Source: Sinohyriopsis cumingii
Taxonomy: Eukaryota > Mollusca > Bivalvia > Unionida > Unionidae
Assembly: GCA_028554795.2 (NCBI GenBank)
Contig: CM068839.1
Coordinates: 42,963,117-43,027,116 of the forward strand
Direction of reading: 5' to 3'
Length of the DNA: 64,000 nt
In this document: in pieces, positions 1-20,600 of the stretch
Position numbering within the stretch: the stretch's first letter is position 1
Layout: every line of letters begins with the position of its first letter
Position numbers and translations under genes: made by a program
Notes under the pieces: generated by a model
The model's input: only the letters and a program-made list of their open reading frames with translations
Told to the model about the DNA's origin: nothing
Database searches by the model: none

Positions 1-1165
1 TTGACGGATTCCGCTCCCATCGAGTTTGAAATCAAAGGACAACCCGAAGATTACATCGATCTGAATAGCAGTTACCTGTATTTGAAAGTGAAAGTTATCA
101 AAACGGACAACACCAATCCAGGAGGCGATGCTAGAGTAGCTCCTGTCAACAATTTCATGCATTCCTTCCAGCATGGATACTTACCCATATCGTGCCTACC
201 TGGAAAATCTCTTGACGTACGGAAAAGAAGCCAAGAATACTCATCTGGATGCTTGCGTGGTATGGAAACCTGACACGGCAGGTGAAGGCACGTTTAGCGA
301 CATAGTCCTGACAGAAGATGACAATCCTCACAATGTGGGGTTTAACGACCGTCGTAAGAAAATTCTGCAAGGGCGAAGTTTAGAACTGATGGATCGTTTG
401 CATTTGGACATGTGGTTACAAGAAAAGTATTTGCTGAACGGGGTGGATATCCGTCTGAGACTGAATCGTAGCAGTGCCGCTTTCCATTTGATGGCCCATG
501 CCAATGAATACAAAACTATCATTCAAGAAGCCCGACTTTACGTGCGTCGTGTGGAAGTGTTACCTAAAGTGGGAAACGACGTCAGTCAGACGTTGAGCAG
601 AACGACCGCCAAGTATCCGATGTGACGCGTAGAAGTGAAAACGTTCACCATTCTCGCTGAACAGCGATCCATGATCGAAGATCATCTGTTCCAAGGACAG
701 TTACCCAAACGTTTGATTGTTGGTATCGTCAGGAATTCAGCCTTCAACGGAACCCACGATCAAAATCCTTTTGAGTTTCAACATTACAATGTATCCAAGA
801 TCGAAGTCAGTCGCGACGGCAAGACCTTGTGTACCCGACCCTTTGAGCCCAACTTTGGTGTCGCGAAGAATTATTTGAGATCGTACTTGTCCCTGTACGA
901 AGCCACCGGACAATTAGGAACCAACACCAGTCACGGTATTTCGTACGACGAGTATGCAGGAGGCTATGCTTTGTGGGGTTTTGATTTCACTCCAGACCAA
1001 GGCAGCGACGAGGGACATTTCCACCCTGTAAAATCGGGTCAGATTCGTGTGGAACTTCACTTTGCAAATCCACCTCCAGATCACACAGTGAACGTCCTCC
1101 TGTATGCAGAATTTGACAATACCATAGAAATCAACAGTTTGAGAGAAGTCATTCTAGACTATTAG
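1..1165 (+). pseudogene. Polinton capsid protein, F54H12.2-like (fossil, partial)
   Basis: The product resembles the protein family annotated in many invertebrates as 'F54H12.2-like', which belongs to Polintons and is taken to be their capsid protein, probably the double-jelly-roll major capsid. Family landmarks are visible: an opening with SAPIEFEIKGQPEDYIDLNS, a PYRAYLENLLTYGKEAK stretch, a DRLHLDMW...KYLLNGVDIRLRL core, a QGQLPKRLIVGIVRNSAFNG block, and a C-terminal VELHFANPPPDHTVNVLLYA...EIN motif. It would act in the virion shell. The copy begins at or before the window edge and is broken, with about two breaks. It lies 5 nt upstream of the next gene, as in a compact viral transcription unit. 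Which capsid class it forms rests on memory of the family. Confidence 0.78.
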
Positions 1166-1170
1166 AAGCC

Positions 1171-1674
1171 ATGGAAGACTGTTATCCCTCTTTACCTAGT
1201 GGAGAAACTTTGGAGATGGAATGTGAGGAGACCGGGGAAGAAGAAGAAGAATCCCAAGACGAAGAAGTTATCATGATGAAGTCAAGATGGCCAGAACAAG
1301 AAGCCCATTTAGTCTCCTGTTTTGCCAAACACTTGGTCGAAAAAATGACGGAATTGATCAAGAAAGAGTGCTATGGATGTCAAAACGATCATCCCAGTCA
1401 AATTCAACACGATAAATGCCTGATGCTGAGTCAAGAAGAAAAATTGAACGAGTATCTGGACGAAGCTTGGAGTCTCATCTCGGACGAAGTCGTGTTGCAT
1501 CAGTGGTATAAAGACTTGCGTGAACATTCTTGTCCACCATTAACCACTCAAGAGGTTCATCGTATCGAAGCTCTTCTGAATCAGAGTGGGGAGACGAAGC
1601 TAAACGCCTTTTACTTGTCAGACATTTTCAAGCAAAAAGTCAGTATCGAATTGGTCACTTATCATTACCTGTGA
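1171..1674 (+). CDS. Acidic Polinton protein with Cys/His cluster, function unknown
   Basis: A reading frame of 167 residues with an ATG 5 nt after the capsid gene's stop; it looks whole. The N-terminus is very acidic (a run of Glu around residues 16-32). The middle carries a possible metal-binding cluster, ECYGCQNDHPSQIQHDKCL, with three Cys and two His within about 20 residues. The C-terminal half is helical and polar. Its tail runs into the region of the protease gene. I do not recognise a characterised function. Position between capsid and protease suggests a virion or packaging role, but that is inference from context only. Confidence 0.55.
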   Translation: MEDCYPSLPSGETLEMECEETGEEEEESQDEEVIMMKSRWPEQEAHLVSCFAKHLVEKMTELIKKECYGCQNDHPSQIQHDKCLMLSQEEKLNEYLDEAWSLISDEVVLHQWYKDLREHSCPPLTTQEVHRIEALLNQSGETKLNAFYLSDIFKQKVSIELVTYHYL

Positions 1675-1679
1675 AGAAG

Positions 1680-2256
1680 AAAACCACACAAATCAATGGA
1701 TACCTGAGAACTTTATTACCTTTTGAACCACAGTTCGTACACGGCTTCTTGGAATCCTGTCGTCTGTACTAAAGATGAACTCCCTCATCGCAAACCTCAA
1801 GACCATCTAGCTTATGTCATCAACACGGACGACAGTCATCTCCCAGGAACCCACTGGGTAGCGGTTTACTTTCCTCAAGAAGGATGTGTGGAATATTTTG
1901 ATTCGTATGGATTGCCCCCTTTGGAAGACGATATCATCGACTTTATGAGAAGAAATGCTCAGACCACCCGATTCAATAATGTGAATTTACAAGGCACAGA
2001 TTCCTTGGTGTGTGGACAATATTGTGTGTATTTTCTGCATCATCGCAGCCTGGGCTATTCCTTAGAACATTTAGTGACTCATTTTGATCCTCGTTCTTCT
2101 TCTAGAAATGATGTGAAAGTAGATCAATGGTTTTGTGACCATTATGCTTATCTTTTGTCTCAAGCTAGGAAACGTAGTGTCCATCAATGGCCTAATGACT
2201 TCCAACAGTGGAAATCACAATTTCATTCACAACGTTGTCAGCCCTGTTTAAAGTAG
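1680..2256 (+). pseudogene. Polinton adenain-type cysteine protease (fossil)
   Basis: The product resembles adenovirus protease (adenain) and the Polinton PRO protein, of the C5/C48 cysteine protease fold, which trims capsid precursors in related viruses. Family motifs are clear: the catalytic His in GTHWVAVYF, the acidic residue in VEYFDSYGLPP, and the Gln and nucleophile Cys in LVCGQYCVYFLHH. These come in the expected order and spacing, and the C-terminal part is well preserved. The gene is broken, with about one break near its front part, and the start was not settled. Downstream is an AT-rich gap of about 170 bp before the two small cassettes. A host SUMO/ULP-type protease was considered, but the motif wording and the capsid neighbour favour Polinton. 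Confidence 0.8.
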
Positions 2257-2430
2257 AGTGTTAATTGAAAAAAAAATGTTTGATGTTATATTGTTGAGTT
2301 ATTGTTAAAAAATCTTAGAGTTGTTTGAAATTTTTTTAGAATAGTGATGGGTAGTATAAAAAAGTCAGTGAGTGTTTCTTTTAAGTCCGCGCCTTGTTTG
2401 GTCATGATCTAGGTAAGATCAATTTTGTTT
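2257..2430. other. AT-rich spacer with an extra TATA-like and GTCCGCGC motif
   Basis: A non-coding gap between the protease gene and the first small cassette. It contains TAGTATAAAAAAG near 2354 and AAGTCCGCGCCTTG near 2382, which echo the GTCCGCGC and TATAAA parts of the two 40-bp blocks downstream, though in a different order. It may be a decayed third copy of the control block. Confidence 0.35.
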
Positions 2431-2470
2431 TAGGGGATGTTTTCCCTCACGTCCGCGCTTTTAGTATAAA
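2431..2470 (+). promoter_or_regulatory. Cassette 1 control block with TATA box
   Basis: A 40-bp block beginning TAGGGGATGTTTTCC, with a GC-rich core CACGTCCGCGCTTT and ending in TATAAA (2465-2470). It matches the block at 3114-3153 at 37 of 40 positions. The TATA box lies about 50 bp before the first ATG of the small gene at 2519. The repeated use ahead of two otherwise different genes makes a promoter the natural reading. Confidence 0.65.
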
Positions 2471-2518
2471 TTGAAAATCGCTCGGCAGTCTAGCTACCCT
2501 TGTTGATTGATCAAGAGA

Positions 2519-2809
2519 ATGAACACCAGAATTGCAAAGCTTCTAGAACTCCAGATGCACCTGGAATATGCCAGGCACATACTAAATGAACTGGTCGCGG
2601 AGGCCATTGTCGAAGAGGGAAGGATGAAATTGGAGGAGGAAAGAAGAAAAAAAGAAGAGGGGGAAAAGGAAAGAGGAAATTTCAGAATCCCAGAGACAGA
2701 AAATTGGGATTATGAAGCCACTTATCCCGCCTCTGCTCTCCCCCAAAAAAGAGTGAAAAGAGACTGGGGAAGAAGATGTGTGTGTGGTGCCAGGCCAGGA
2801 AAGTGCTAG
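2519..2809 (+). CDS. Small lysine/glutamate-rich protein of cassette 1, unknown function
   Basis: An intronless reading frame of 96 residues starting MNTRIAKLLELQMHLEYARH. The first half is predicted to be one amphipathic helix. A highly charged Lys/Arg/Glu stretch follows (residues about 41-58), then a Pro- and Arg-containing tail with a late Cys pair (CVCG). I do not recognise the family, and it is not a core histone. The ATG at 2519 is chosen because it is the first ATG after the TATA box. The stop is 34 nt before a histone-type stem-loop. It looks whole. The compact layout (TATA, short leader, intronless frame, stem-loop) resembles a replication-dependent histone gene. Confidence 0.55.
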   Translation: MNTRIAKLLELQMHLEYARHILNELVAEAIVEEGRMKLEEERRKKEEGEKERGNFRIPETENWDYEATYPASALPQKRVKRDWGRRCVCGARPGKC

Positions 2810-2843
2810 CATTAGATAGGTGCATCTGGAGTTAAAAACAAAC

Positions 2844-2883
2844 AGCCCTTTTCAGGGCTACCGAAACCTTTAGAAAAGAAATA
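2844..2883 (+). terminator. Histone-type 3' stem-loop and purine-rich box, cassette 1
   Basis: The 16-nt hairpin AGCCCTTTTCAGGGCT (2844-2859) has a 6-bp stem and a TTTC loop. It is preceded by AAACA and followed by ACC. Canonical metazoan histone mRNAs end in GGYYYU-UHUH-ARRRCC, with an A-rich 5' flank and ACC on the 3' side; this copy differs only in the basal pair (A-U for G-C). About 12 nt further on, AGAAAAGAAA (2872-2881) looks like the histone downstream element that pairs with U7 snRNA. In histone genes such signals give a cleaved, non-polyadenylated end. Confidence 0.75.
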
Positions 2884-2944
2884 GTAATCGATTTGCCAAT
2901 GTGTGTATGTAGAGTAGTGTGAATATAAACAATCTTTTTTTTCC

Positions 2945-2977
<33 letters not shown>

Positions 2978-3113
2978 TAAGCGCTCACGTACGTTTGTGT
3001 GGATAGTAGATTTGGGTTTAATTTTAATGCTTTGCGTGTGTGAATAGTAGATTAGGGGTTTGTTTATTGATGCTTCACGTATGTGGATAGTAGATCATAT
3101 GAAATGAGAAAAG
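2884..3113. repeat. GT microsatellite and short direct repeats between cassettes
   Basis: A (GT)n run at about 2947-2973 is followed by three loose copies of a roughly 50-bp unit containing GTGGATAGTAGATT or a close variant (about 2998-3095). No gene is visible. Confidence 0.6.
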
Positions 3114-3153
3114 TAGGGGATGTTTTCCTTCACGTCCGCGCTTTAACTATAAA
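3114..3153 (+). promoter_or_regulatory. Cassette 2 control block with TATA box
   Basis: The second copy of the 40-bp block, starting TAGGGGATGTTTTCC and ending TATAAA (3148-3153), with three differences from 2431-2470. It lies about 85 bp before the ATG at 3239. The match stops sharply at the block edges while the flanking sequence differs, which points to selection on, or recent copying of, just this block. Confidence 0.65.
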
Positions 3154-3238
3154 ACTAACAGTGTTTGCCATTGGAGCCCATTCCACGGAATAAGCAAACA
3201 AGAAGATACCAGCAGCTTCAGCTTTGTATAACAACCTT

Positions 3239-3805
3239 ATGGGAAGTTGGTACTGGATGGTGGATGGATTGAATGTAGCAGAAAGGCTTGAACAGGAATG
3301 GAGGCATGCAGTGACAAAAGATTTCGTCTCAAGACAAGTAACCAGCCTCCACTTAGCAATCGATATTGTGAAAGAAATGATAGAGAATGAGGAGAAGAGA
3401 ATCAGAGGTTTCATTAACCCACCGTATGTGAAAGTGGGCAAGTTGAAAGAAGCCATAGTTTATGTGACGAGTGTAAGGTGTTTTTCAGAAGACATTGTAG
3501 AATGGACAGATTGGTCTTTTGTGAAGTGGGGCTTAGACAAACGTAAGAAAGCGGAAGAAGTAATGAGGAAAGTGCTGACCGAAGAGGTCAAGAACATCAA
3601 AGAAAAGTGGTCAAAGGAAAGAAAAGAAGAAGAAAATAGAAAGAAAAAGGAAGAACTAGAGAAACTAAACGCTAACTGGATGAAAATCCAACAGAAGTTC
3701 CGAGCCATGGGTCACCCGGACTGGATACCGGAAACAGAAAAGAAGAAGAAGAAGAAAGGAATGATGGAAAAAATAAGGGGATGGATAAAGAAGTTAAGGA
3801 GTTAG
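3239..3805 (+). CDS. Lysine-rich protein of cassette 2, unknown function
   Basis: An intronless reading frame of 188 residues starting MGSWYWMVDGLNVAERLEQE. The N-terminal two thirds are mixed helical with several Trp. Residues about 108-146 form a long charged helix rich in Lys and Glu, likely a coiled coil, and the C-terminus is strongly basic (a KKKKKKG run at residues about 168-174, then WIKKLRS). The basic tail could bind nucleic acid, but that is inference. I do not recognise a family. The first ATG after the TATA box was taken as the start. The stop is 27 nt before a perfect histone-type stem-loop. It looks whole and shares its control block and 3' signal, but not its protein sequence, with cassette 1. 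Confidence 0.58.
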   Translation: MGSWYWMVDGLNVAERLEQEWRHAVTKDFVSRQVTSLHLAIDIVKEMIENEEKRIRGFINPPYVKVGKLKEAIVYVTSVRCFSEDIVEWTDWSFVKWGLDKRKKAEEVMRKVLTEEVKNIKEKWSKERKEEENRKKKEELEKLNANWMKIQQKFRAMGHPDWIPETEKKKKKKGMMEKIRGWIKKLRS

Positions 3806-3828
3806 AAGAAGAAGAAGAAGAAGAAACC

Positions 3829-3872
3829 CAAAGGCCCTTTTCAGGGCCACTCCAATTTCTCGAAAAGAGATC
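3829..3872 (+). terminator. Histone-type 3' stem-loop and purine-rich box, cassette 2
   Basis: The hairpin GGCCCTTTTCAGGGCC (3833-3848) fits the metazoan histone 3' stem-loop consensus at every constrained position: GG base, pyrimidine-rich 5' arm, loop UUUC, purine 3' arm, CC end. It is flanked by CCCAAA upstream and AC downstream, as in histone mRNAs. GAAAAGAGA at 3862-3870, 13 nt downstream, sits where the U7-pairing downstream element is expected. The distance from the stop codon (27 nt) is typical for histone genes. Confidence 0.82.
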
Positions 3873-3929
3873 GACTTTTAATTGCCTACCCCTTTTTTAT
3901 TTTTTTTATTTTTTAAAAAAAAAAAAAAA

Positions 3930-4235
3930 TCCCATGTTCAATTCCCCTTGTCCCTAGAATTTCTTTTTTTTCTCCCATGTTAAATTCCCCTTGTCGCTAA
4001 ACAGGCCCACGATTTATTCCCATGTTCAATTTCCCTTGTCGCTCAACAGACCCACGATTTATTCCCATGTTAATTTCCCATTGACGCCAAAGCGACCCAG
4101 GGGTTTTCGTAATGTTAAATTTCCCTTGACGCCAAAGTGACCCAGGGGTTTTCGTAATGTTAAATTTCCCATTGACGCCAAAGTGACCCAGGGTGTTTTT
4201 TAATGCTAATTCCCCTTGACGCTAAAGTGACCCAC
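3930..4235 (+). repeat. 45-bp tandem repeat, about 7 units
   Basis: Units begin CCCATGTTAAATTCCCCTTG or TAATGTTAAATTTCCCTTGA and contain GACCCA near the end; period about 45 bp. Early units carry ...CACGATTTATT and later ones ...CAGGGGTTTTCG, so two subtypes sit side by side. It follows an A/T-homopolymer-rich stretch (3890-3930). It may be the subterminal repeat of the Polinton, but no terminal repeat was found to prove it. Confidence 0.7.
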
Positions 4236-4944
4236 TTAACTACTGCCGTAATATTCTGCAAAAACCAAGCAAATAACTTACTGGCTTTTATGAAGCTTTG
4301 TCTTTTCTTAGAATCTCCTAAGTTTTACCACCAAATTACGAATGACTCTCTCGGAGTAACACTATATTACACAGCAATCTTCCACGGCGATACTAAATTT
4401 TCGCTTGTTAGTTAGAAGTTATAATTCTGATCGAAATTGTTACCACACCCTCTATCTCAATTCCGATTGGATGTCGCTTTGGTTCGATCCAATAAAACTT
4501 AGCGGACAATGTCCTTCTCGCTGTCTGTCCACGTGAGGACGGATTTAGAACACACCCCGTTCCTCGCTGGTTCCTCTGATCTTAAGACAAAGCTGTAACA
4601 CATAGGTGGGAAGTCGCGCTATCTAACGCCTGTGCCGATTCAAGATGCCGGATATTCTCTCTCGTCACGGTAACCTTGCGTAAGAGATTACATCTAGCCT
4701 GCAGCAATGTTCAAACATTAAACATGGCTTGTAATAATACCTTAGTTTATACACGACTTTCGAACTGGGACCGAGTAAACTTGACACCCCCACGCTTGAG
4801 AATAGCGGGATTTTATTCCCCCAAAATTGGTCAAATGCAAATGTGCGTTACTACACGCAATAAAAGAAACAAAATCATAACGAAGCTAAACGCTGAGTAC
4901 GAACACGAATATACACACAACATATAGTTATCTACAGAGCGATC
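4236..4944. other. Non-coding stretch between Polinton and Ty3/Gypsy remnants
   Basis: About 700 bp of mixed composition. Short open frames here (for example 4203-4415 and 4676-4927) resemble nothing I know. It could be the terminal part of the Polinton or the flank of the Ty3/Gypsy remnant. No repeat ends were recognised. Confidence 0.4.
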
Positions 4945-17600: not shown

Positions 17601-20600
17601 TGGGTGATAAAGGAGCATAGCAGGTTATTGCTAGTGGTTTTTGACGATGGGCTCAAACTAGGATACTCGAATCCCCTCAAGATCAATCGTTCTTTTTAAG
17701 AGGCAGCCATATTTATTCTTCTTTGTGACAATACCTTTGAATGTCTGCTACAATGCTAGGCTTCTCAGAAGTGTTCAATTTGTGTCAGTACATTGATAAG
17801 ATGCTTCTGGGATCAAAGCAGAACATGTTTGTGATTACAGTTTTATATGAAGGCACAACTTAAAAGCAAGTTTTTACTATGGGTCATTTCTAAAGTTGAT
17901 TCTAAATGGAAATCATTCACATACAATATAAAGGCCATTTTTATGTTCCAAAAGTGATTTTAGTCTCATTTTAGCCCTGTTGAATCTTCTTTTGAACTTT
18001 TTATTTGCTAGAAAATGAAATAGATTGATATTGATCTGACATATTTATTATCGTTTTTTTTAATTAGATATACCTTATGTAGTATGTGCTAAATTATTTG
18101 CTAATTAGAACAGGAACATAAACTTTTCATGTCTGGTTAGTAGTTTTTAAATTTGTTACTCTTATTATGTACTGCATATTGTGCTTGTTTGTAAGATGTT
18201 GCTGGCACCATGTGCTATAACTTGCATGCAATTCATGTATGTGCTTGTTTGTAAGATGTTGCTGGCACCATGTGCTATAACTTGCATGCAGCTCATGTAT
18301 GTGCTTGTTTGTAAGATGTTGCTGGCACCATGTGCTATAACTTGCATGCAGCTCATGTATGTGCTTGTTTGTAAGATGTTGCTGGCACCATGTGCTATAA
18401 CTTGCATGCAGCTCATGTATGTGCTTGTTTGTAAGATGTTGCTGGCACCATGTGCTATAACTTGCATGCAGCTCATGTATGTGCTTGTTTGTAAGATGTT
18501 GCTGGCACCATGTGCTATAACTTGCATGCAGCTCATGTATGTGCTTGTTTGTAAGATGTTGCTGGCACCATGTGCTGTAACTTGCATGCAGCTCATGTAT
18601 GTGCTTGTTTGTAAGATGTTGCTGGCACCATGTGCTATAACTTGCATGCAGCTCATGTATGTGCTTGTTTGTAAGATGTTGCTGGCACCATGTGCTATAA
18701 CTTGCATGCAGCTCATGTATGTGCTTGTTTGTAAGATGTTGCTGGCACCATGTGCTATAACTTGTATGCAGCTCATGTGTGTGCATGCATGCACATCTTG
18801 TTGCTCACCGAGAGAACACAATTACTTAAGGATTGACTGTTTATTTTTTTTAATTCAACGAACTATGAACCCAAAAAAATGCTTTGCAAACTGTGTAAAC
18901 CATGAAGCCAGTCCTTATGATTAAATTCAGCAGCATAAATACATGTAGTTAAAAATACTCATAATTTAATAACATTCTTTTGTTTCATAAGGTGCACTAA
19001 TACATAAGAGTGAAGATTCTTGATGAATATCTACAGCCAATCAGAAAAAAGCATTAAGTCAAAAAATCAAAATCCATACTTGCACGATAGAAATCATCAT
19101 CCACAAAGACTGTGTCATTGTGTTCAGGCTAAACAAGGTTTTGTTCTTCATTTTGATCAATGTTTAAGACTGTTCAAATTCACCCTGCAAAATACCATCA
19201 TGTCTTCACATCAAGATATGTAAAGACGATGTTTATTTATTCATTTAAAGTCTATTTCATTTGTAACATTGGTAAAGATGTCTCATTTATTTGAAAAAGG
19301 TAAAGTATTTGGTTCATGATTAAAATCTTACAAAAGAAGACTATACAGGCCTTAATATATTATCTAATACCTCATATGTCAAATGTTTGCATAACTCATG
19401 TTCTCTTTTTTTTCTTTCTTTATTTTTGTTTTATTTTATTCTGCCAAATAAATTTCCATATTGTAATGGTATACAGATTTCATATCATATGTTAATACAT
19501 ACACACTGATGAATTTCTCATGGTACCATCATGTCTTTAACATCAAGATATGTAAATAGACGATGTTTATTTTTTCATTTATAGTGTACTTTACTTGTAG
19601 GATTAGTAAAGACATCTCATTTATTTAAAAAAAATATCCAGTATTTCGTTCAGAATAAAAATCTTATGTAGGAAGTCTGAGTTTGAGTGATCCAATATTC
19701 TAATATAGTCCTCAGGTGGGCATGGCTTTAAAAAAATTGGGTTCATACAGATGTGAACCAAAAAAATTGAAAAGGGCTTGGCCATTGAGATTGCTTTAAA
19801 TTGTATTTATATTTGATTTGTGCCAATTTCAGTTTACACCATATCCTCAAGAATGCATCTGTAGCATAAATTAAGCATTACCTGTATGTAAATTTGTGGA
19901 TTTGGGGGAGGAAGGTTTATGTTTTTCTTCTTTTTTGATGATTGTTTAAATTTGGAGATGAAATCTATGAACATTGGTCTTCATGATCAAAAGTGACGGG
20001 ATAATATTTTGAAATGATTTCTGTTCAAGAGGCCATGTTCTATAAAAAGTAGTTATGAAATTTCCAAGATATTTTGACAGATATGTAAAATAAATAGTGT
20101 AACAAATTTAATTATCATCAATGTTTCTTTATGGTTTAAAGTTTGACATTGGATAGAAATTATAATTTGATGCTGCATGTTTTCTTAAAGACTAATTGAT
20201 TATACTTTAAAAACCACTTGCACAGTAATTTACTTAGCAGGTTTGATGTATTGTTGACCCTAGTTAATTGATGTGTCAATCTTGCAGGTGAACATTTCTG
20301 CTTACCAGAACTTTTGGTGGATCAGCCTCTTGTCCTTGAGTAAGTTGTCTATGTATTTGTTTTCAGATTTGTTTCCATTTAAGTACATCTAAAGCATTAA
20401 TTGGCCTGTGTTTGGAGGGCTTTCCTTTGCTATATCACCTGTTATAATTTTGGATGTAATACATTCATGCTATGCTACAAACTTTACAAGAAAACAAATT
20501 TTGGTTTTGATAATCTTGAAAACTGATATAGCCACTTTGTCCAAGTTGGACCTCAGCATTCATCCATAGATCTATTTAGCCATTATTTAGATTATTCTCT

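Follow-up and report, generated by a model that had tools for sequence, protein, structure and literature searches.

Terminal genes of a high-copy Polinton-type element carry histone-type 3' ends and promoter motifs and may be expressed as imitation histone genes

Replication-dependent histone genes of metazoans (Rfam family RF00032, Histone3) are single-exon genes with a TATA promoter whose messages end through the SLBP/U7 pathway. A short distance past the stop codon lies a hairpin with a 6-bp stem and a UUUC or UUUA loop, preceded by an A-rich flank and followed by AC, and a purine box lies 13-14 nt downstream. Apart from those of histones, no metazoan mRNAs are known to arise by this hairpin/U7 route. 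Polinton/Maverick elements and the related adintoviruses are recognized by terminal inverted repeats (TIRs), a 6-bp target duplication, AGTAGT termini, a type-B DNA polymerase and a protease. We know of no description of histone-type promoters or 3' ends on genes of animal Polintons, and none appeared among the papers listed in literature searches. The only earlier hint that we found in the literature is a count, in an RNA scan of polinton-like viruses and virophages, of six histone-type hairpins among other RNA classes (PMC12220804). In the accessible part of that report the six are given as a number only, with no genomes, gene ends, box, promoters or role, and the same authors' cryptophyte set contains no histone-type hairpins. 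Adomaviruses, which are related to adintoviruses, carry 'Histoid' genes that, according to the accessible part of the source, code for histone-like proteins (PMC11071296). This is likewise a virus-histone connection in animal DNA viruses; there, however, the protein is histone-like, whereas in the element described here only the gene signals are.

The window, a 64-kb stretch of the Sinohyriopsis cumingii genome, contains the right end of a Polinton-type virus-like element of which this genome holds thousands of copies. Two histone-type hairpins had been noticed here by a sequence-only reading, and both lie within one insertion, 11.2 kb long, that has TIRs of 421 nt and is flanked by a 6-bp target duplication. 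The features of this copy are as follows.

1-1165, forward strand: broken gene, candidate Polinton capsid; split between two reading frames and interrupted by an in-frame stop; without hairpin
1171-1674, forward strand: element ORF of unassigned function, 167 aa; without hairpin
1723-2256, forward strand: adenovirus-type protease-like ORF (Pfam Peptidase_C5, PF00770, 15.4 bits, under the cut-off of 21.3); without hairpin
2375-2392, forward strand: H4-type promoter motif of gene A2, TTTCTTTTAAGTCCGCGC (host H4: TTTCTTTTAGGTCCGCGC)
2434-2458, forward strand: histone-type promoter motif of gene A2, GGGATGTTTTCCCTCACGTCCGCGC; TATAAA at 2465-2470
2519-2809, forward strand: gene A2, 96 aa, single exon; median dN/dS 0.21 over A2 of 12 copies, the window's included
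2844-2859, forward strand: histone-type 3' hairpin of gene A2, AGCCCTTTTCAGGGCT; outermost pair A-U, not G-C
2873-2879, forward strand: GAAAAGA, core of a histone-downstream-element-like box, gene A2; starts exactly 13 nt past the hairpin
3117-3141, forward strand: histone-type promoter motif of gene B, GGGATGTTTTCCTTCACGTCCGCGC; TATAAA at 3148-3153
3239-3805, forward strand: gene B, single exon, rich in lysine and glutamate; 188 aa if translated from this ATG, an uncertain start
3824-4244, forward strand: right TIR, 421 nt, 97.6% identity to the left TIR (L095 515-929)
3833-3848, forward strand: histone-type 3' hairpin of gene B, GGCCCTTTTCAGGGCC; just within the right TIR
3862-3868, forward strand: GAAAAGA box of gene B; starts exactly 13 nt past the hairpin
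4245-4250, no strand: target-site duplication GCCGTA, 6 bp; repeated directly outside the left terminus (genomic C16:42956114)

The Polinton identity that had been proposed is borne out by structure: TIRs, 6-bp duplications and, in another copy (L042) outside the window, a type-B DNA polymerase (PF03175, E 3.9e-36). Element TIRs measure ~420-440 nt and the termini begin AGTAGT; in the window's right TIR the gene B hairpin and box at the inner edge are followed by 45-nt tandem repeats, and the terminus reads ...CCCACTTAACTACT. A full-length copy is flanked by the 6-bp target duplication TACGAT, and the outermost hairpins of one full-length copy lie ~17 kb apart. The gene at 1-1165 we take for a putative Polinton capsid gene, without a family match; candidate capsid ORFs gave no hit above the Pfam cut-off and none in PHROGs. 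A match to an A32-type packaging ATPase in copy L004 (PF04665, E 1.2e-05) perhaps comes from a neighbouring copy, because it lies on the opposite strand beyond that copy's TIR. Searches of IMG/VR with the protease, one capsid piece and PolB revealed no relatives. The hairpin-plus-box pattern found 16 stretches there, of which three could form six pairs including G-U and none had the GGCCC/GGGCC stem; one contig retrieved via the hairpin pattern was rejected as a chance match, lying within a 784-aa ORF. Host histone genes or pseudogenes were also rejected as an account of the window, since none of the ORFs belongs to a histone family by sequence match and the ends of the copy are of Polinton type. 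The element differs from known Polintons in the histone-type 3' ends of its terminal genes and the histone-type promoters of A and B, and from replication-dependent histone genes in encoding proteins not recognizable as histones and in being a virus-like mobile element of thousands of copies.

Both window hairpins consist of a 6-bp stem and a 4-nt U-rich loop and are present with all flanking parts, sense to their ORFs. The ORFs end 34 nt (A2) and 27 nt (B) upstream, in agreement with the distance of about 30 nt first reported, and the purine box, placed 12-14 nt downstream in that account, is GAAAAGA at 13 nt in both. A proposed check with the Rfam Histone3 model gave a mixed result: the hairpin of gene B scored 36.9 bits (E 4e-07 in a 64-kb scan), above the gathering score of 34, but that of gene A2 scored 29.7 bits (E 1.7e-05 in a 6-kb scan), below it. 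The scan detected no further site at a gathering score in the rest of the 64-kb window. In 12 loci the model reported 21 element hairpins, and 9 of these passed the cut-off, including 0 of 10 A-type hairpins, which unlike those of histone genes open with an A-U pair; host histone hairpins passed in 6/6 cases. Likeness to histone genes was judged directly against the host's own five, which lie in an 8.3-kb repeat in the same genome. These end in GGCCCTTTT[CTA]AGGGCC (H1: GGTCCTTTTCAGGACC), with the box GAAAAGA (GAAAAGG in H2A) 13 or 14 nt past the hairpin. Element and host signals match in stem, loop, flanks, box and spacing, which supports the earlier suggestion that a Polinton may use host histone 3'-end processing.

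Exact copies of the two hairpin 18-mers were counted across the 2.9-Gb genome, with the reversed patterns as controls. GGCCCTTTTCAGGGCCAC occurs 18,491 times (9,108 + 9,383) and AGCCCTTTTCAGGGCTAC 19,967 times (9,878 + 10,089), and both controls gave 0; because of this recurrence by thousands, chance hairpins, already judged very unlikely, are excluded. The description of two hairpins holds for the window copy but understates the element, one full-length copy of which has five by coordinates. The hairpin is present at the same genes in many related copies, though not in every copy. GAAAAGA follows 86 of 88 element hairpins at distinct places (81 at 13 nt, 5 at 14 nt), and 76 of 81 hairpins with distinct flanks are preceded by the end of a same-strand ORF of at least 55 codons, 10-90 nt upstream; median distances from stop codon to hairpin are 24-29 nt. 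In element hairpins the loop remains asymmetric (TTTTC/A) and the 5' flank A-rich, and the 3' flank is mostly AC. Sequences around hairpin and box vary among cassettes; hairpin, box and spacing scarcely do. Within the loci retrieved, a peptide pattern located fifteen copies of gene L; all have the box (15/15), with an exact hairpin in 13 and one G-U wobble in 2.

Covariation was assessed in 17 chosen hairpins (5 histone, 12 element), in which 99% of cells were paired. The outer pair changes between G-C and A-U and the third between C-G and U-A, the U-A coming from host H1. The covariation score was reached by 0/500 shuffles, the count of pairs changed on both sides by 45/500 and the number of pair types by 416/500. 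In A2 flanks, conservation was 0.990 for the hairpin and 1.000 for the box, compared with 0.869 for other columns and 0.964 for the best other 16-column stretch; such simple counts are biased, because most hairpins were collected by the exact hairpin pattern, and we give these values no weight.

Intact-length ORFs were present for 31/33 A, 3/15 B, 10/18 M and 14/15 L hairpins. Of 28 A-type entries, 22 went into the dN/dS analysis, while 5 were set aside as short, frame-changed or odd and 1 was moved to B2; the analysis also used 12/13 L, 10/10 M and 7 B2. Decayed copies fall outside it by design, because only intact-length ORFs were entered. Medians in the five gene groups A1, A2, B2, L and M were 0.11-0.33, and every usable pair was below 1. 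The ORFs of these five groups are under purifying selection, as judged from sequence comparison. For the window's form of gene B, the single usable pair gave 0.28. No Pfam match to a histone domain was obtained for A2, B, L or M; structure models were of low confidence for both gene B (AlphaFold, all-helical, mean pLDDT 61.5) and gene L (pLDDT 48.3).

A new observation is a 25-bp promoter motif common to both window genes and host histone genes. It is found in the host H2B, H1 and H2A promoters, with identities of 24/25 to H1, 23/25 to H2B and 20/25 to H2A (on the other strand), and is absent from H3, one of the five host histone genes. Host H4 carries a variant, and the element has counterparts of both motif types; the H4-type motif TTTCTTTTARGTCCGCGC occurs in 10,004 copies in the genome. 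In comparisons of A and B promoter regions with host histone promoters, the best ungapped match scored 18-23 in 6/6 cases, against shuffle maxima of 13-15 (100 shuffles each). One copy (L043) has 23 nt in common with H2B and 21 nt with H4, all identical. The longest exact match of the window copy to the host is 13 nt, no better than shuffles, and its signal is significant only with one or two mismatches allowed. Promoters of the left-end genes L and M each scored 10, a value attained or exceeded by 92/100 and 89/100 shuffles, respectively. Of the first 100 promoter motifs listed (C1, 0-6.7 Mb), 58 are followed on their own strand, at 350-900 nt, by an exact hairpin and 0 have one on the opposite strand; shifted positions gave a mean of 0.5 and at most 3. 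For the remaining 42 no exact hairpin lies in that range, and some of these are second motifs or mutated copies. Because the promoter motif is shared with host histone genes, the case for S-phase-linked expression of the element genes, which we infer from such signals, is strengthened.

Candidates for the host factors were also sought. A candidate U7-like RNA family of three genes begins with TCTTTTC, the complement of GAAAAGA, but scores 13.8-17.9 bits against an Rfam cut-off of 34, and the pattern that led to it is no commoner than its control (16 vs 20). A whole-genome search with the Rfam U7 model gave no match, and its controls were silent too. Predicted pairing of the gene A2 box with the U7-like RNA is -8.2 kcal/mol, narrowly short of the value that marks off the strongest 5% among random stretches (-8.4); for the box of one decayed copy it is only -5.5 kcal/mol. 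An exon-wise genome search for SLBP gave no match at E 0.001. Of four weak matches the best scored 21.4 bits (cut-off 27), and the two inspected by eye were unlike SLBP. Host SLBP is nonetheless implied to exist, because the host has canonical histone genes.

Several other explanations bear on these data. It is possible, though we consider it unlikely, that the promoter motif is a general host promoter element, or one that moved from elements into histone genes, and so carries no information on histone mimicry. The motif has 30,300 copies in the genome, only histone and element promoters were compared, and H3 and the left-end genes are without it. Its occurrence in H1, H2B and H2A, the H4 variant and the presence of both types in the element argue in the opposite direction, as do six control stretches (protease, capsid, PolB, a histone spacer and two host stretches) in which promoter matches remained at shuffle level. 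The 3' ends, for their part, might have a dual use, with SLBP binding the hairpin for translation or stability and 3' ends arising mainly by downstream cleavage and polyadenylation, an arrangement that we regard as improbable. The hairpins had been described as standing instead of poly(A) signals. This is correct for both window genes, since AATAAA and ATTAAA are absent from the 150 nt downstream of each, but it does not extend to all copies: 11/33 A-type and 7/18 M-type flanks contain one of the two signals, compared with 55/392 background windows. Against dual use, these signals are rare after B (1/14) and L (2/15) hairpins, and the box is retained at exact spacing, for which U7-dependent cleavage is the best explanation; downstream poly(A) signals also serve as a fail-safe in histone genes.

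Passive capture, in which the element once took up pieces of host histone genes and has since carried promoter and hairpin fragments as functionless passengers, would account for the resemblance at both gene ends, and amplification alone could spread the copies. We give it little credence, given the lack of a histone domain in A2, B, L and M by Pfam, the correct placement of signals at both ends of the unlike ORFs A1, A2 and B and at the 3' end of L and M, the purifying selection on A1, A2, B2, L and M, and the divergence of cassette flanks around a hairpin, box and spacing that hardly change. Least probable, and in our judgement very much so, is a DNA-level TIR signal for replication start, packaging or integration in place of an RNA signal. 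In the window copy each TIR does have a hairpin ~5-10 nt within its inner edge, and visual inspection of a full-length copy shows the same, but the A1, A2 and M hairpins are at least ~0.8 kb from the terminal ones. Such a signal would also leave unexplained the same-strand ORF ends just upstream, the preserved asymmetry of loop, flanks and 3'-side GAAAAGA, and the same set on host histone genes.

We therefore favour, with a probability of about 0.78, the reading that the small terminal genes of the element are built as imitation histone genes, expressed by the SLBP/U7 route in S phase. This reading draws on anatomy, the match to host histone genes at both gene ends, sense orientation, recurrence and purifying selection on most ORF groups; all RNA-level steps are predicted from these, as are expression in S phase and the involvement of SLBP and U7. 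Each hairpin-ended cassette comprises a TATA promoter, a short single-exon ORF, the histone hairpin and, 13-14 nt on, the GAAAAGA box. Host histone promoter factors would drive transcription of the A and B cassettes during S phase, SLBP would bind the element hairpin, and U7 snRNP would pair with the box. Cleavage after the hairpin would then yield a stable, non-polyadenylated mRNA, to be exported, translated and destroyed like histone mRNA. With cassette expression in S phase, the accessory proteins would therefore appear just when the host replication machinery is open to element DNA.

More broadly, it is probable that a Polinton-type virus family disguises its accessory genes as histone genes, using host histone-type promoter elements and SLBP/U7 signals that give tail-less mRNAs made only in S phase, and that amplification has placed up to ~38,000 histone-type 3' ends in one genome (the sum of the two exact hairpin counts, if all lie in element copies). 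If so, the element would amount to a natural experiment showing which parts are enough to make a histone-type gene, and there would be a reason why messages of such viruses could escape RNA-seq with poly(A) selection. The Polinton life cycle would be tied to S phase, and element 3' ends could compete with host histone mRNAs for SLBP and U7; the copy number raises the question of how the host keeps both available for its own histones.

Both hairpins that close the A2 and B genes in the window were confirmed, together with every flanking part that the sequence-only reading had described. Its statement that the two genes lack poly(A) signals also held, no AATAAA or ATTAAA being found within 150 nt downstream of either. 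Against the Rfam Histone3 model (cut-off 34), the gene B hairpin scored 36.9 bits and the A2 hairpin 29.7 bits. Exact searches of the 2.9-Gb genome revealed 9,108 + 9,383 occurrences of the 18-mer GGCCCTTTTCAGGGCCAC and 9,878 + 10,089 of the 18-mer AGCCCTTTTCAGGGCTAC, with none for either reversed control. Among the first 100 A-type places listed, 72 formed 36 same-strand pairs, representing two genes, A1 and A2, with hairpins 768-886 bp apart in 35 pairs and 1,365 bp apart in one. Among the first 100 listed places of the other hairpin type, 26 formed 13 divergent pairs (the left-end genes L and M), spaced by 1,058-1,101 bp in 12; many L hairpins are missed by the exact pattern because they end in AG. 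Hairpin counts, rather than counts of the copies themselves, give an estimate on the order of ten thousand element copies.

The window copy is 11,247 bp long, and the genes of a full-length copy were pieced together from parts of different copies:

C16:42956114, left terminus of the window copy, 7,003 bases before the window begins
Window 1-4244, right end of the mobile element, right terminus at 4244
Gene order in the window copy: broken capsid-like gene, 167-aa ORF, protease-like ORF, then hairpin-ended A2 and B
Full-length layout, left TIR: an outward hairpin ends gene L, which encodes a basic product of 76-78 aa
Gene M: inward-reading, with its own hairpin
CCHC zinc-knuckle gene: reads from the other strand than M
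PolB and structural-type genes: between the CCHC zinc-knuckle gene and A1
A1, A2 and B: right part, one hairpin each; B reads into the right TIR

The TIRs of the window copy are 97.6% identical over 421 aligned nt, and GCCGTA flanks both ends as a 6-bp target-site duplication. A second, full-length copy on contig C1 has a 440-nt TIR alignment (97%), a TACGAT/ATCGTA duplication (taken from its terminal sequences) and outermost hairpins at 1188888 and 1205826, 17 kb apart, with three further hairpins between. Another copy, L042, carries a type-B DNA polymerase ORF (PF03175, 3.9e-36), next to which lie two BIR (inhibitor of apoptosis) ORFs (L042 966-2131). On such sequence features we call the element Polinton-type. 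The broken gene at window 1-1165, which we take to be a candidate capsid gene, is in pieces in two frames with an in-frame stop; in copy L044 a single frame of similar length is open throughout. In the window copy the TIR starts 9 nt ahead of the gene B hairpin, so both terminal genes end within the TIR. Tandem repeats of 45 nt occupy window 3930-4234 within the TIR, and in other copies the terminal hairpin is likewise followed by comparable repeats. Elsewhere, a ~66-nt tandem repeat (HELHASYSTWCQQHLTNKHI units) at window 18127-18924 leaves several frames open on both strands, and non-LTR retrotransposon-like ORFs (CCHC knuckles, endonuclease and reverse transcriptase, judged by eye) adjoin the element end at L043 3126-7000, perhaps inserted in it.

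Gene B exists in two dissimilar forms, and no A1 was seen in the window copy, where A2 is present. Comparisons restricted to ORFs of intact length gave median dN/dS values of 0.11 for A1 (43 of 45 pairs usable), 0.21 for A2 (56/66), 0.11 for B2 (7/21), 0.15 for L (30/66) and 0.33 for M (35/45), with every usable pair of these genes below 1; the window's form of gene B yielded a single usable pair (0.28). A Pfam scan covering A2, B, L and M gave no family that reached its cut-off.

The 3' ends of the element genes were compared with those of the host histone genes, which lie in 8.3-kb repeats with H3, H4, H2B, H2A and H1. These ~8.3-kb quintets are spread over many small contigs (e.g. C531, C801 and C941), as would be expected of what is probably a large array with an incomplete assembly. 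The same kind of hairpin ends all five histone genes, 27-38 nt after the stop codon, followed by GAAAAGA (GAAAAGG in H2A) 13 nt past the hairpin in H3, H4 and H2B and 14 nt past it in H2A and H1. Element genes have median stop-to-hairpin distances of 24-29 nt (range 11-63), and of the 88 element hairpins found at separate places in these loci, 86 are followed by GAAAAGA (13 nt in 81, 14 nt in 5), the two exceptions being B-type; because the loci were collected by exact hairpin patterns, this count tests the box and not the hairpin. A less hairpin-dependent sample, albeit from loci chosen by that very hairpin or one close by, was 15 gene L copies found by peptide pattern: GAAAAGA was present in all, the exact 16-mer hairpin in 13, and the other two had one change that leaves a G-U pair. 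The more diverged L/M pair at L054 350-1480 has a gene L hairpin with a G-U pair and altered 3' flank, and an intact GAAAAGA.

In a set of 17 hairpins (5 histone, 12 element; odd ones deliberately included), 99% of cells were paired and both sides had changed at two of six pairs. Its covariation score was attained by none of 500 shuffles; the number of both-side-changed pairs was matched by 45 and the pair types by 416. An Rfam scan of 12 loci (E ≤ 0.01) picked up 27 hairpins, the cut-off being reached by 6/6 histone and 9/21 element hairpins (0/10 A-type); two mutated element hairpins (L054 gene L, L087 gene B) went unreported.

A2 and B are preceded by a 25-bp motif, GGGATGTTTTCC[ATC]TCACGTCCGCGC; a TATA-like box usually follows it at 6 nt (for 43 of 66 distinct motifs). 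Host promoters match it at 24/25 positions for H1, 23/25 for H2B, 20/25 for H2A (other strand) and 16/25 for H4, which has its own variant; the best H3 match, 14/25, is at chance level. In copy L043, the H4 variant TTTCTTTTAGGTCCGCGCGTT is identical over 21 nt upstream of A2, where the H2B form also matches over 23 nt. All six A/B promoter regions scored 18-23 against host histone promoters (shuffle maximum 13-15); scores stayed at the shuffle level, 10-12, in six control stretches and also in two L/M promoter regions (100 shuffles each). Exact matching with the window copy alone reached only 13 nt, also attained by shuffles. The whole genome contains 14,960 + 15,340 occurrences of the motif and 10,004 of the H4 variant, with none for the reversed controls. 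Among the first 100 motifs listed, 58 were followed at 350-900 nt by an exact hairpin on their own strand and none by one on the opposite strand (shifted-position control among matches listed: mean 0.5, at most 3). In the other direction, an exact motif was found 350-900 nt upstream of 51 of the 67 A-type hairpins in the same stretch. Window 6001-64000 and L042 1-6200 contained no motif, and a loose hairpin pattern occurred once and zero times, respectively.

Three loci share TCTTTTCAAGTTTCTCTAG followed by the hairpin GGCAG-AUAAA-CUGCC or its G-U variant, and an exact genome search for the Sm-like site and hairpin, omitting the 5' part, returned precisely these three (control, 0). Their 5' start is complementary to GAAAAGA, and they are likely, though unproven, U7 genes, with Rfam U7 scores of only 13.8-17.9 bits. 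Pairing with the box is predicted at -8.4 to -14.0 kcal/mol in the five histone genes; of eight element examples, seven give -8.2 to -11.4 kcal/mol and the decayed eighth -5.5. Among 500 random element stretches, the top 5% starts at -8.4 kcal/mol. The base preceding TCTTTTC differs among the three (A, T and C in L090, L091 and L092), differences that would fit the three box kinds of histone and element genes, GAAAAGAT, GAAAAGAA and GAAAAGAG. A search of the host genome identified no SLBP.

The one earlier hint found is in the non-coding RNA section of PMC12220804, where six matches to 'histone 3'UTR stem-loop' are counted, without further comment, across a set of genomes of polinton-like viruses and virophages; the paper's cryptophyte genomes contribute none. 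Passages of PMC11071296, on viral histone-like proteins, of PMC5799277, PMC8363768, PMC12721341 and PMC11244446, and of PMC6713331, which has SLBP in its reference list only, have no bearing on histone-type ends of Polinton genes. A search mostly outside the subscription literature turned up no account of Polinton genes with histone promoters or with such ends and a downstream box, an absence that does not establish novelty.

The A and B genes are most likely expressed the way histone genes are, every RNA-level step being inferred from the identity of their sequences to those of the host histone genes. The promoter motif common to element and histone genes would direct A/B transcription in S phase, and the U7 machinery would cut the transcripts after the SLBP-bound hairpin, and the resulting mRNAs would not be polyadenylated. 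Genes L and M have only the 3' half of this histone-type program.
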